20,228 nt of DNA from Microbacterium lacus. GTDB taxonomy: Bacteria; Actinomycetota; Actinomycetes; Actinomycetales; Microbacteriaceae. A model generated the notes under the pieces. That model saw nothing but the letters and a program-made list of their open reading frames with translations. It was not told the origin of the DNA and searched no databases. The DNA is taken from NCBI RefSeq assembly GCF_039531105.1, contig NZ_BAAAPK010000004.1, forward strand, positions 1 to 20,228. The letters are read 5' to 3'. The position numbers and the translations under genes are program-made. Below are positions 7,107-18,982 of this stretch, one piece after another (position 1 is the first letter of the stretch; each line of letters opens with the position of its first letter).

Positions 7107-8639
7107 ATGAGCGAGAGACCGTCGATCGCGTCCATCATGAGTCAGGGCGGACGCGTCGCCGGAAGTCAGCGCGAGATCAGGATCATCGACACCACCCTCC
7201 GAGACGGGCACCAGAGCCTGTGGGCCACTCGCATGCGCACTGAGCACATCGCGTCCATGGCAGCCGACTTCGACGGCGCCGGCTTCGAGCATGTCGACCT
7301 GGTTGCCCCAATCCAATTCGACGTGGCCGTTCGATATCTCAAGGAGGATCCTTGGGAACGGGTTCGTATAGCCCACCGCCTGGCGCCGCGTACACGCTTC
7401 CGGGCACTGATCCGATCACGCAATCTTGCTGCGTTCGACTTCCTCCCTGATGATGTGATAACGGCATGGGTCGAGCGGCTTTATGCCAACGGCTTCCGTT
7501 CGATCGGCTCGTTCGACGGACTCAACGATGTCGACAACATCGCCGGCGGCCTGCTTCGGGCCAAACATCTCGGCGCAGAGACTTTCGGGGCCGTTTCGTT
7601 CTGTGAGAGCCCCGTGCACACCGACGAGCTATTCGTCTCGAAAGCGATTGAACTGATCGAGAAGGCGGACGTCGATCGCATCATGCTCAAGGACGCTGGG
7701 GGGTTGCTCACTCCGGAGCGGATCCGTTCATTGGTGCCCGCCCTGAAGGACGTCATCGGGCAACGCCCACTCGAAGTCCATACGCACTCGCTGACAGGGC
7801 TCGCACCGCTGGTGTGCTTGGAGGCAGCGGAGGCCGGCGCCGACTCCTTGCACTTGTCGATAGCCCCGCTCGCGACGGGCAACGCGCAACCGTCCGTGCA
7901 AAACGTCGTCCGAGATCTGCGCGCCCTTGGCTACGTCGTCAATGTCCGAGACGACGTCGTACAAGGGATCAGTGAGAAAATTCGCGCGATTGCAGCGGCA
8001 GAGGACAAGCCGCTCGGGGTACCGATCGAGTACAACGGACTGCACTACATGCACCAGACGCCGGGGGGCATGCTGTCCAACTTCCGCTCGCAGCTCGCGA
8101 CTGCCGGGCTCGAGCAACGATACGACGAGCTTCTCATGGAGGTCGCCCGGGTTCGTGCAGAGCTCGCCTATCCCATCATGATCACCCCCTTCGCGCAGTT
8201 CGTCGGCACCCAGGCGGTGCTAAACGTGGTGACCGGCGAGCGATACAAGGTGGTCCCGAACGAGATCAAGAAGTACGTGCTCGGCTACTACGGCCAACTG
8301 CTTGGCGACATCGAAGCGGGACTGCGCGAGAAGATCCTTGCGAACGGCGCGTCCGACATCCCACTGGAGCCGACCGAGCCAAGCCCGATGCTTCCCACGC
8401 TGCACGAGCACCACCCGGACGAGTCGATCGACGACCACCTGCTTCGCGCGATGTTCGCCGGCAGCCAGGTCGACGAAATGAAGGCGACGGTGGCCGCGGG
8501 GGGAAACCCGGACGAGCTACCGGGCAATCTTTTGTCCATCGTGAAAGAGCTCTACGACAAACTTCCGGCGGGCACGAGATCGCTCGCCGCCGGAGACCTG
8601 CGAATCAGAATTCAGCGAGGAGACAACCATGCCGCTTGA
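7107..8639 (+). CDS. Biotin-dependent carboxyltransferase subunit, OadA/PycB type, acceptor unknown
   Basis: This 510-residue HMGL-like TIM-barrel carboxyltransferase resembles pyruvate carboxylase subunit B, oxaloacetate decarboxylase alpha and transcarboxylase 5S. Visible motifs are DTTLRDGHQ (28-36), the carboxylated lysine in MLKDAGG (Lys195), the metal ligands HTH (225-227) and the PYC_OADA motif HQTPGGMLSNFRSQL near 330-345. It has no C-terminal biotinyl domain; that is the next gene. The pocket departs from pyruvate enzymes: the usual RGxN-x-VGY segment reads RSRNLAAFDF, FDALND reads FDGLND, and the usual SMSMG-type segment reads SIAPLATGN. The acceptor is therefore uncertain. ATG 7107 is preferred over GTG 7101 because GAAGGGG (7091-7097) has better spacing to it. 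The gene overlaps the biotin-carrier gene by 11 bp. Confidence 0.88.
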   Translation: MSERPSIASIMSQGGRVAGSQREIRIIDTTLRDGHQSLWATRMRTEHIASMAADFDGAGFEHVDLVAPIQFDVAVRYLKEDPWERVRIAHRLAPRTRFRALIRSRNLAAFDFLPDDVITAWVERLYANGFRSIGSFDGLNDVDNIAGGLLRAKHLGAETFGAVSFCESPVHTDELFVSKAIELIEKADVDRIMLKDAGGLLTPERIRSLVPALKDVIGQRPLEVHTHSLTGLAPLVCLEAAEAGADSLHLSIAPLATGNAQPSVQNVVRDLRALGYVVNVRDDVVQGISEKIRAIAAAEDKPLGVPIEYNGLHYMHQTPGGMLSNFRSQLATAGLEQRYDELLMEVARVRAELAYPIMITPFAQFVGTQAVLNVVTGERYKVVPNEIKKYVLGYYGQLLGDIEAGLREKILANGASDIPLEPTEPSPMLPTLHEHHPDESIDDHLLRAMFAGSQVDEMKATVAAGGNPDELPGNLLSIVKELYDKLPAGTRSLAAGDLRIRIQRGDNHAA

Positions 8640-9138
8640 CCAGCCCGACATTCGCGAACTGAAGGCCATCATCGACTGGGTCAACCTCACGCCGGACGTG
8701 CAGGAACTGTCACTGAAGTACGGCGATGTCGAGCTATTCGTCTCGCGAGGCGGCCAGGGACACATCGCCACCTCACGGAAACCGACGACGCCGGCCACTT
8801 CCCCTGCACCACCGGCCGCTCCCCCGGCGCGAGAGGCGACTGCTCCTGTCCCCTCCGCGCCCGCGCCCGCTCCACCGACGATCGCCGCACCGGGAGACGT
8901 CGTCATTACTGCGCCCATGGTCGGGACGTTCTACGCCGCTCCGAGCCCCGCCGCACCCGCGTTCGTATCCGTCGGTGGACGAGTTACGCCGACCACGGTT
9001 GTCGGCATCGTCGAAGTCATGAAGCTCATGAACAGCATCGAGGCGGGAGTTCTGGGTACTGTGACCCGCATCATGGCGACCAACGAGCAGGCCGTCGAAT
9101 TCGGCCAGCCTCTCCTGGTGATCACGCCAGATGTCTAG
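8629..9138 (+). CDS. accB: Biotin carboxyl carrier protein, AccB-like
   Basis: A 169-residue carrier with an AccB-like N-terminal segment (DIRELKAIIDWVN), a Pro/Ala-rich flexible linker at about 50-88, and a C-terminal biotinyl domain (about 92-169) containing PMVGTFYAAPSP and the biotinylation motif VEVMKLMN with the target lysine at 132. It carries CO2 from the biotin carboxylase to the carboxyltransferase. The usual EAMKM is EVMKL here, which is acceptable in the family. A GAGGAG box precedes ATG 8629 inside the upstream gene, and the end overlaps the biotin carboxylase by 8 bp, so three subunits of one enzyme are coupled. The sequence resembles the acetyl-CoA carboxylase carrier, while the partner carboxyltransferase is not of the acyl-CoA type. 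Confidence 0.93.
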   Translation: MPLDQPDIRELKAIIDWVNLTPDVQELSLKYGDVELFVSRGGQGHIATSRKPTTPATSPAPPAAPPAREATAPVPSAPAPAPPTIAAPGDVVITAPMVGTFYAAPSPAAPAFVSVGGRVTPTTVVGIVEVMKLMNSIEAGVLGTVTRIMATNEQAVEFGQPLLVITPDV

Positions 9139-18539: not shown

Positions 18540-18982
18540 CTCGCCACCACTGCACGTCCCACAACCCTCGCTGACCCGTCGGTGGCAAGGGTGCCGTCCG
18601 CCCTGACGAGTTGCATCCGCAGAGTCACTCCCGGATTCGGCTCACTCGCATCCGCGACCTCGATGACGGTGAGCGATGCCCGCAGCACCTCCCGCGGGTA
18701 GACCGGATTGGCGTGGCGCACAGTCGAGGTTTCCAGCACAGCGCCGAGACCGTTGGCCCATTCAGAGACAAGCTGCGTGAGCCAGGTCGCCTGCAGTGGT
18801 CCGTGTACTGGAACAGTGCGAAGTCCTTCCGACCGCGCGAACTGGTGATCGTAATGAATGCGATGCGGGAGGGCGCACGCGGCGCTGAAGAGAAACAAGT
18901 CGATTTCGTCGACGACGTGCTCTCTCGTGGCGACAACCATTCCGAGATGAAGGGTGTGATGCTCCCAGCGGGGTGAAGCCAT
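18536..18982 (-). CDS. MaoC/HTD2-like hydratase component, probable partner of the MaoC_N protein
   Basis: A 148-residue single hot-dog protein. The motif HRIHYDHQFARSEG, followed by VPVHGPLQATWL, is characteristic of HTD2 and mesaconyl-CoA-hydratase-like MaoC proteins, where it normally reads SALTFNGHRIHYD. Here the preceding bases of the motif encode CALP, so the conserved Asn position is altered while the His and the HYD core are kept. It is the first gene of the five-gene minus operon and sits 61 bp after a good promoter with an operator in its spacer. A heteromeric hydratase with the protein of 16494-16964 is expected, like ChsH1-ChsH2. ATG 18982 has only a weak ribosome site. Confidence 0.85.
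   Translation of the reverse strand: MASPRWEHHTLHLGMVVATREHVVDEIDLFLFSAACALPHRIHYDHQFARSEGLRTVPVHGPLQATWLTQLVSEWANGLGAVLETSTVRHANPVYPREVLRASLTVIEVADASEPNPGVTLRMQLVRADGTLATDGSARVVGRAVVAR

Follow-up and report, generated by a model that had tools for sequence, protein, structure and literature searches.

Introduction

Acetone carboxylases (Acx) and acetophenone carboxylases (Apc) convert ketones into β-keto acids and are not known to contain biotin. They are described as ATP-dependent enzymes forming a protein class of their own (PMC5543143, PMC5214803). Two biotin-dependent systems, HpeCBA of Rhodococcus rhodochrous GD02 and XccBCA of Aromatoleum aromaticum EbN1, are presented as carboxylases of (phosphorylated) aryl ketones (PMC9618137, PMC8461187). 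Here, we report on a locus of Microbacterium lacus in which a biotin-dependent carboxylase is encoded next to a predicted retro-aldolase related to those of steroid side-chain degradation. The locus occupies one whole contig of 20,228 bases (C4; hereafter the window) in an eight-contig genome of 3.54 Mb. A sequence-only reading of positions 7107 to 18982 proposed a route leading from an ester or alcohol to an acyl-coenzyme A (acyl-CoA), followed by hydration, retro-aldol cleavage, and carboxylation. Searches with Pfam, curated models, and PDB sequences confirmed all of the gene families on which this proposal was built, at the positions given for them; the route as a whole was supported in part. 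The span considered in that reading leaves out BioY, TetR, and both copies of the candidate operator described below.

Results

Two convergent operons have a unique 19-nt site in common

The plus-strand operon encodes, in this order, a carboxyltransferase (CT), a biotin carboxyl carrier protein (BCCP), a biotin carboxylase (BC), an aldehyde dehydrogenase (ALDH), a fused double CoA-transferase (CaiB2), and an alcohol dehydrogenase (ADH). The minus-strand operon encodes MaoC, the aldolase, DUF35, MaoC_N, and the esterase AXE1 (Table 1). The operons are convergent and 106 bases apart, the genes for the biotin transporter BioY and a TetR regulator being divergent on the left. Within operons, the genes overlap or are separated by at most 16 nt, except for BC and ALDH (40 nt).

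Both the 186 bases separating BioY from CT and the region upstream from MaoC contain ACCGGGCGCCCGGTCGGTT, exactly and in the same orientation relative to the operons. In the whole genome, the exact 19-mer was found only at positions 7017 and 19044 of the window. With up to three mismatches, the window contained four matches (the two exact copies and their palindromic reverse readings) for 0.04 expected, and the genome one additional site (C1:443225). The latter match is attributed to chance since a control search with the sequence read backwards gave two. A scan for sigma-70 type promoters did not detect any promoter-like site. The presence of a unique exact site upstream from each operon, beside the TetR/BioY pair, suggests that both operons belong to one regulon, the neighboring TetR being the predicted binder of the site and the putative regulator of both.

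Transport of biotin by BioY fits the demand of the carboxylase for this cofactor. Among 80 loci encoding CT relatives (the best 80 of 413, with neighbors counted by tblastn; 49 of the loci extend over more than 6 kb on both sides), BioY matches were present in 6 (E ≤ 1e-10) and, within 8 kb at no less than 40% identity, in 3. BioY is also annotated at loci L131 and L128.

A candidate route from an ester to a carbonyl compound

We consider it an evenly balanced question whether the two operons form a single TetR-controlled regulon for one catabolic route leading from an ester or alcohol to an acyl-CoA and a carbonyl compound, possibly followed by carboxylation. AXE1 would hydrolyze an acetate-type ester to yield the alcohol, which ADH and ALDH would convert into an acid, and CaiB2 would activate the acid to an acyl-CoA. 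The split MaoC pair would hydrate a double bond of this acyl-CoA, and a complex of DUF35 and the retro-aldolase would cleave the resulting β-hydroxyacyl-CoA into acetyl-CoA, or another acyl-CoA, and a carbonyl compound. If the latter is a ketone, which implies a tertiary β-hydroxyl, CT-BCCP-BC would add CO2 to give a β-keto acid, and a chromosomal 3-oxoacid CoA-transferase and thiolase could complete its breakdown. The genome does encode separate CoA-transferase and thiolase genes. We infer all of these reactions and their order, which is plausible. In its most specific form, the proposal is that the Sal-like aldolase splits a tertiary β-hydroxyacyl-CoA into an aliphatic ketone (such as acetone, in the case of 3-methylcrotonyl-CoA) and that a biotin-dependent ketone carboxylase re-fixes this ketone. 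This would be an undescribed aerobic route, and we advance it tentatively, with more doubt than confidence.

The BCCP contains EVMKLMN, which we take to be its biotinylation motif. An Asp residue is present near the usual position in both halves of CaiB2, presumably with a functional role in each; the closest other homologues of this protein are 36–44% identical to it.

The thiolase-fold protein has aldolase rather than thiolase residues

The protein encoded by positions 17379–18539 reads PGGNGG where four aligned thiolases (those of L126, L127, and L125_b, and the PcaF-like enzyme of the same genome) have C[AL]SG. The Tyr base of the YD[HC][FY] motif is present in the form Y285-D-C-F, with no variation across the 31 sequences aligned (the window protein and 30 chosen from the 119 other matches listed). 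YDCF is also the motif of TbSLP and is close to the YDCY of CtSal (PMC12329534). Relatives with 74–77% identity to the window protein (P0122–P0125) were also found. Assignment as a true thiolase was rejected, since the nucleophilic Cys is missing (no CxS) and YDCF replaces HDAF. In the Foldseek listing for its structure model, the closest entry was the Ltp2 aldolase (6ok1). The residues of Ltp2 proper (YDHF and Tyr344) are not conserved, the window protein having YDCF and, in the alignment to 6ok1, His335 at the position of Tyr344. A DUF35 partner (PF01796/PF12172) is encoded by the adjoining gene. On the basis of these features, the protein looks like a Sal/Ltp2-type retro-aldolase, in agreement with the cleavage step that had been proposed.

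Modules combining a hydratase, an aldolase, and DUF35 exist elsewhere. A search of 384 genomes of the class gave MaoC relatives (E ≤ 1e-12) in 6, M. lacus being one of them, and an aldolase with a YDCY motif adjoins MaoC in all five others. Each of these five regions (L161–L165) encodes two acyl-CoA dehydrogenases, MaoC_N, MaoC, the aldolase, and DUF35. A plasmid of R. qingshengii (L142) has the same module order together with an FMO-like enzyme and two family-III CoA-transferases (domains identified by Pfam); four of the five same-class regions encode a relative of this FMO-like enzyme. In Sphingobium (L130), an aldolase of this kind is encoded in one gene run with an FMO-like enzyme; in Rhodococcus (L129), the FMO-like gene is located about 10 kb from the aldolase gene, beyond transposase and integrase genes. 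The modules containing FMO-like enzymes fit a ketone product, if these flavoenzymes are Baeyer-Villiger monooxygenases. Aldolase relatives are labeled 'transporter' in the plasmid records of L129 (11710–12867), L130 (11578–12750), and L140 (8704–9879); the motif is YDCF in the first two and YDGF in the third.

The carboxylase and its relatives

CT, BCCP, and BC are encoded by separate genes of one operon (7107–10501). The CT scored 388.9 bits with the PYC-B model NF006761 (cut-off of 402) and far lower in comparison to the cut-offs of the other models listed. In a tree without support values, obtained in one FastTree run from which HpeB and XccC themselves were left out, the window CT fell among CTs of actinobacteria and alphaproteobacteria and was separate from the kinase-linked enzymes of L126, L127, and L137. 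Both subunits of a 3-oxoacid CoA-transferase are encoded near the CT cassette in 24 of the 80 loci, 11 of them from Corynebacterium; the CoA-transferase is accompanied by a thiolase in 20 loci, and a β-keto-acid cleavage enzyme (BKACE) is encoded near CT in 7. To judge from these neighbors, the product of the carboxylase is probably a β-keto acid, and its substrate would be a ketone. The ketone-type carboxylation of the earlier proposal is thus compatible with the relatives' neighbors, the link between ketone and carboxylase being supported by context. Among the thiolases found next to CT relatives, those of L131, L006, L011, and L002 did not reach the 3-oxoadipyl-CoA thiolase cut-offs, and that of L027 (Corynebacterium) exceeded an acetyl-CoA acetyltransferase cut-off. 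These mixed scores therefore do not distinguish acetoacetate from 3-oxoadipate as the product.

An ordinary anaplerotic pyruvate carboxylase appears less likely, since the genome holds a separate PYC_OADA gene (1135-aa frame). We retained this function as part of another explanation, in which CT-BCCP-BC would be a variant of pyruvate carboxylase and the hydratase and aldolase would act on a C5 diacid-type CoA ester: itaconyl-CoA or mesaconyl-CoA would be converted into citramalyl-CoA, then into pyruvate and acetyl-CoA, and the pyruvate into oxaloacetate. We regard this scheme as quite unlikely. Besides the separate PYC_OADA gene, it is opposed by the score of the CT, which falls short of the cut-off of every pyruvate carboxylase and OADA model listed, and by the 3-oxoacid CoA-transferase/thiolase or BKACE genes adjoining some of its relatives, which are needless for oxaloacetate. 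In addition, entry by an ester, alcohol, and aldehyde provides no obvious way to itaconate.

The neighbors of the CT relatives also bear on the possibility of two pathways, or of another order of reactions. ADH would oxidize a secondary alcohol to a ketone, CT-BCCP-BC would carboxylate it, and CaiB2 would activate the β-keto acid, replacing the 3-oxoacid CoA-transferase of other loci, the minus-strand operon acting on a different substrate from the same source. The 3-oxoacid CoA-transferase genes in 24 of the 80 loci favor this arrangement, CaiB2 belonging to the carboxylase operon in the window, as does an ADH (33% identical) at the CT loci L015, L019, and L022. It leaves no role for ALDH, however, and neither operon encodes a true thiolase, the thiolase-fold protein being devoid of the nucleophilic Cys. 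The unique operator present upstream from both operons further argues for one regulon. Overall, we consider this arrangement unlikely.

Several relatives of the CT have features of their own. The active-site Lys of pyruvate carboxylase is carboxylated; a Glu replaces it in the CTs of the Hpe-like loci L126 and L127 of Rhodococcus plasmids and of L080. At L015, L019, and L022, the CT relatives adjoin genes for ADH, a permease-like protein, and a class-III aminotransferase-type protein (Pfam assignments for L019 only), suggesting an amino-ketone or amino-alcohol substrate at those loci. In a metagenome-assembled genome of Rhodovibrionaceae (L080, 10004–13058), a CT relative is immediately followed by DUF35 and by a thiolase-fold protein with a YDAF motif and no nucleophilic residue; this is another carboxylase-aldolase pairing.

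Observations weighing against the single-route proposal

Several results count against a single ketone-forming route. CtSal, whose YDCY motif largely coincides with that of the window protein, yields an aldehyde rather than a ketone (PMC12329534). The window aldolase could likewise free an aldehyde from a secondary β-hydroxyacyl-CoA (e.g. an aromatic aldehyde from an aryl-enoyl-CoA), to be oxidized by ALDH, with the carboxylase serving another ketone or acyl precursor. The YDCF motif is closer to the YDCY of CtSal than to the YDHF of Ltp2, and ADH resembles benzyl alcohol dehydrogenase. Nonetheless, most of the related YDC[YF] modules include an FMO-like enzyme, consistent with a ketone product if this enzyme is a Baeyer-Villiger monooxygenase, and the position of the carboxylase at the head of its operon would be unexplained. 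We thus view the release of an aldehyde as improbable.

The hydration step proposed for the ketone-forming route raises a second difficulty. The MaoC protein matches itaconyl-CoA hydratase (8khg/8huc) around HRIHYD...VHGPL, the window protein reading ALPHRIHYD and VHGPLQAT. The catalytic pair of MeaC is given as Asn226 and His231, the Asn five residues ahead of the His (PMC10164722). The window MaoC retains the His, but Leu38 replaces the catalytic Asn (LPHRIHYD, 18848–18871), and in MaoC_N an Ile occupies the position of an Asp in the aligned ChsH chain. These two substitutions place hydration in doubt: the heteromeric hydratase is present as a family, and its activity is weakened as a prediction. 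All seven MaoC relatives whose motif was inspected (L142, L143, and L161–L165) retain the Asn; a more distant relative, L141, does not have an HRIHYD-type motif.

A third group of observations concerns the supply of substrate. The earlier proposal held that the acid may already be α,β-unsaturated since no acyl-CoA dehydrogenase is encoded. A Pfam scan of the 20 main open reading frames (ORFs) of the window found no such gene, ADH and ALDH being present instead, which agrees with an acid that is already unsaturated. However, the rest of the genome contains nine matches to the acyl-CoA dehydrogenase family, which could feed a saturated acid into the route. As for the substrates that had been suggested, no result obtained here points to a prenyl, geranyl, or cinnamyl compound.

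With respect to the shared site, the 14-bp core taken alone was found four times with up to three mismatches, for 3.9 expected. This is the level of chance, and the case for a regulon therefore rests on the exact 19-mers. The site was absent from the loci of relatives searched (all except L001, L082, L116, L145, and the loci from number 154 onward), which gave only two matches with three mismatches, at uninformative positions (L011 and L142).

Finally, the gene set did not recur among the loci examined. Within 8 kb, none of the 80 CT loci encoded ALDH, CaiB2, ADH, MaoC, DUF35, or the aldolase at 40% identity or above and E ≤ 1e-20. In favor of the proposal, relatives of AXE1 (54%) and TetR (45%) occurred once each, both at the Subtercola CT locus L006. 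Relaxing the threshold to E ≤ 1e-10, over the whole stretches retrieved, revealed ALDH in 23 of the 80 loci (at most 34% identity), ADH in 3 (33%), partial CaiB2 in 4 (at most 39%), and the aldolase in 1 (L080, 31%); MaoC, MaoC_N, and DUF35 were not matched in any of the 80. L003 and L004, which harbor the two CTs closest to the window CT in the tree, are devoid of a 3-oxoacid CoA-transferase gene within 8 kb. At the level of the family, CT was present in 4 of 398 genomes, M. lacus included (E ≤ 1e-100; up to three candidates scored per genome among those shown). CaiB2 was not detected in the three CT-bearing relatives (E ≤ 1e-40). The aldolase matched in 65 of the 398 genomes at E ≤ 0.001, but below 1e-60 only in M. 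lacus and in G276 (53%), which does not encode CaiB2 either (E ≤ 1e-40). Among 396 genomes of the phylum, the aldolase of M. lacus was the only match at E ≤ 1e-90, and 301 genomes of another family, searched without a positive control, gave none at E ≤ 1e-90 (up to six candidates per genome among those shown). Searches of plasmids detected no match to CaiB2 (E ≤ 1e-60) and, with the window DNA as query, pieces of BioY and BC only. The complete set was not encountered at any other locus examined. The sequence-only reading had named lack of co-occurrence of the operons in related genomes as an argument against itself; for the 80 CT loci, this is in part what we observed.

Annotation of the window

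Table 1. Features of the two operons and of the adjacent regulatory region.
Feature	Position	Strand	Basis and remarks
TetR-family regulator (TetR_N + TetR_C_24)	5631..6239	-	Pfam; follows BioY, transcribed away from the carboxylase operon
BioY biotin transporter subunit	6291..6920	-	Pfam PF02632 1e-34
Candidate shared operator, 19 nt, with 14-bp perfect palindrome core	7017..7035	+	71 nt upstream of CT start
Carboxyltransferase (CT) of biotin-dependent carboxylase, PYC_OADA/5S type	7107..8639	+	PYC_OADA 8.8e-29; HMGL-like 2.1e-16
Biotin carboxyl carrier protein (BCCP)	8629..9138	+	EVMKLMN; TIGR00531 128 bits (cut-off 115)
Biotin carboxylase (BC) subunit	9131..10501	+	NF006367 and TIGR00514 (accC models) above cut-off
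Aldehyde dehydrogenase (ALDH)	10542..11978	+	PF00171 2.5e-145; best PDB 8yen 5.3e-116
Fused double family-III (CaiB/BaiF) CoA-transferase (CaiB2), 767 aa	11978..14281	+	PF02515, two stretches, 3.7e-95
Zinc alcohol dehydrogenase (ADH), benzyl-alcohol-dehydrogenase-like	14278..15384	+	Second-best PDB, benzyl alcohol dehydrogenase 1f8f 1.1e-74
AXE1/cephalosporin-C deacetylase family acetyl esterase	15491..16477	-	PF05448 6e-101; PDB 1vlq 2.1e-104
FAS1_DH_region/MaoC_N, putative subunit of split hydratase	16494..16964	-	PF13452 1.1e-16; 4w78/4wnb (ChsH1-ChsH2) 1e-4
Stand-alone DUF35 (ChsH2-C OB fold + Zn ribbon), putative aldolase partner	16957..17382	-	PF01796, PF12172; 2.7e-14
Predicted Sal/Ltp2-type retro-aldolase, thiolase fold	17379..18539	-	YDCF, no nucleophilic Cys; best PDB Ltp2 6ok1 3.5e-53
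MaoC subunit, itaconyl-/mesaconyl-CoA hydratase type	18536..18982	-	HRIHYD...VHGPLQAT; MaoC 1.5e-7; Leu for catalytic Asn
Candidate operator, second exact copy	19044..19062	-	61 nt upstream of MaoC start; orientation as before CT

To the left of these genes, a cluster of sugar-acid type (1149–5616) encodes a Zn dehydrogenase, DUF4432, an SDR epimerase-like protein, a 2-keto-3-deoxy-6-phosphogluconate (KDPG) aldolase, and a PfkB kinase; it has no copy of the operator. A DUF4432 gene is likewise located downstream from the carboxylase in Herbiconiux (L005). The ends of the contig (1–838 and 19391–20228) are inverted copies, 88–89% identical, of a gene for a sugar-type ATP-binding cassette (ABC) solute-binding protein. 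Both copies are broken off at the same residue, and a repeat may mark the end of the contig.

Discussion

The family assignments, the layout of the operons, the shared site with its uniqueness, and the aldolase-type residues are directly apparent in the DNA. The parts of the proposed route and the idea of one regulon are well supported, and the claim that both operons serve one route has gained an exact common site and has lost the expectation that the full set would be found at another locus. Since the genes of the set are missing from the relatives examined, it has the appearance of a recent and possibly mobile assembly tied together by the shared control site. The set is a new combination of known enzyme kinds. 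Neither this gene set, nor a biotin-dependent carboxylase acting on levulinate or acetone, nor a breakdown of prenol along these lines was described in the literature within reach of our search, which mostly excluded subscription journals.

The shared operator makes the idea of a single pathway directly testable. If the aliphatic ketone route proposed above is correct, the name 'pyruvate carboxylase subunit B' would be wrong for the proteins that bear it in Arthrobacter, Microbacterium, Herbiconiux, Leucobacter, and elsewhere, and these would constitute a large family of carboxylases acting on aliphatic ketones. Many database entries would have to be renamed if biotin-dependent carboxylation of ketones other than aryl ketones and their phosphates were widespread. 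A CO2-fixing step beside a ketone-releasing aldolase would be of use for biocatalysis, and the route would help to explain the breakdown of branched or terpenoid-like alcohols and esters by actinobacteria.

Like HpeCBA and XccBCA, the carboxylase comprises three subunits (BCCP, CT, and BC) encoded by a catabolic operon. In contrast to these systems, a phosphoenolpyruvate (PEP)-type kinase and a HAD/NagD phosphatase were not found in the 20 ORFs scanned, and the Hpe-like kinase-linked CTs of Rhodococcus plasmids, separate in the tree, are 41–42% identical to the window CT. The plasmid clusters L126 (881–13186) and L127 (1035–13190), one of which is from R. oxybenzonivorans, are variants of the published Hpe operon; they combine kinase, carboxylase, and phosphatase genes with a DUF35/thiolase pair in which the thiolase residues are conserved.

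The itaconate pathway lyase belongs to another family than the window aldolase. The HRIHYD motif of the window MaoC is common to hydratases of the itaconate type, whereas the window hydratase is split in two and does not have the catalytic Asn. The order of CoA-transferase, MaoC-type hydratase, and lyase is the same in itaconate degradation (Ict, Ich, and Ccl), which leads to acetyl-CoA and pyruvate (PMC12290011).

The ChsH1-ChsH2-Ltp2 and Shy-Sal systems of steroid side-chain degradation resemble the minus-strand operon in combining a MaoC pair, DUF35, and a thiolase-fold aldolase. The window differs from them in that DUF35 is a separate protein, a carboxylase adjoins, and no steroid-ring genes are present among the scanned ORFs. 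The module of L142 and the five same-class modules likewise associate an HR[IV]HYD-type MaoC with an adjoining aldolase (YDCY in these cases) and DUF35, the identities between window and L142 proteins being 26–41%, in some cases over part of the protein. Two acyl-CoA dehydrogenases are encoded in those modules, most of which also have an FMO-like enzyme, whereas the window encodes ADH, ALDH, and a biotin-dependent carboxylase.

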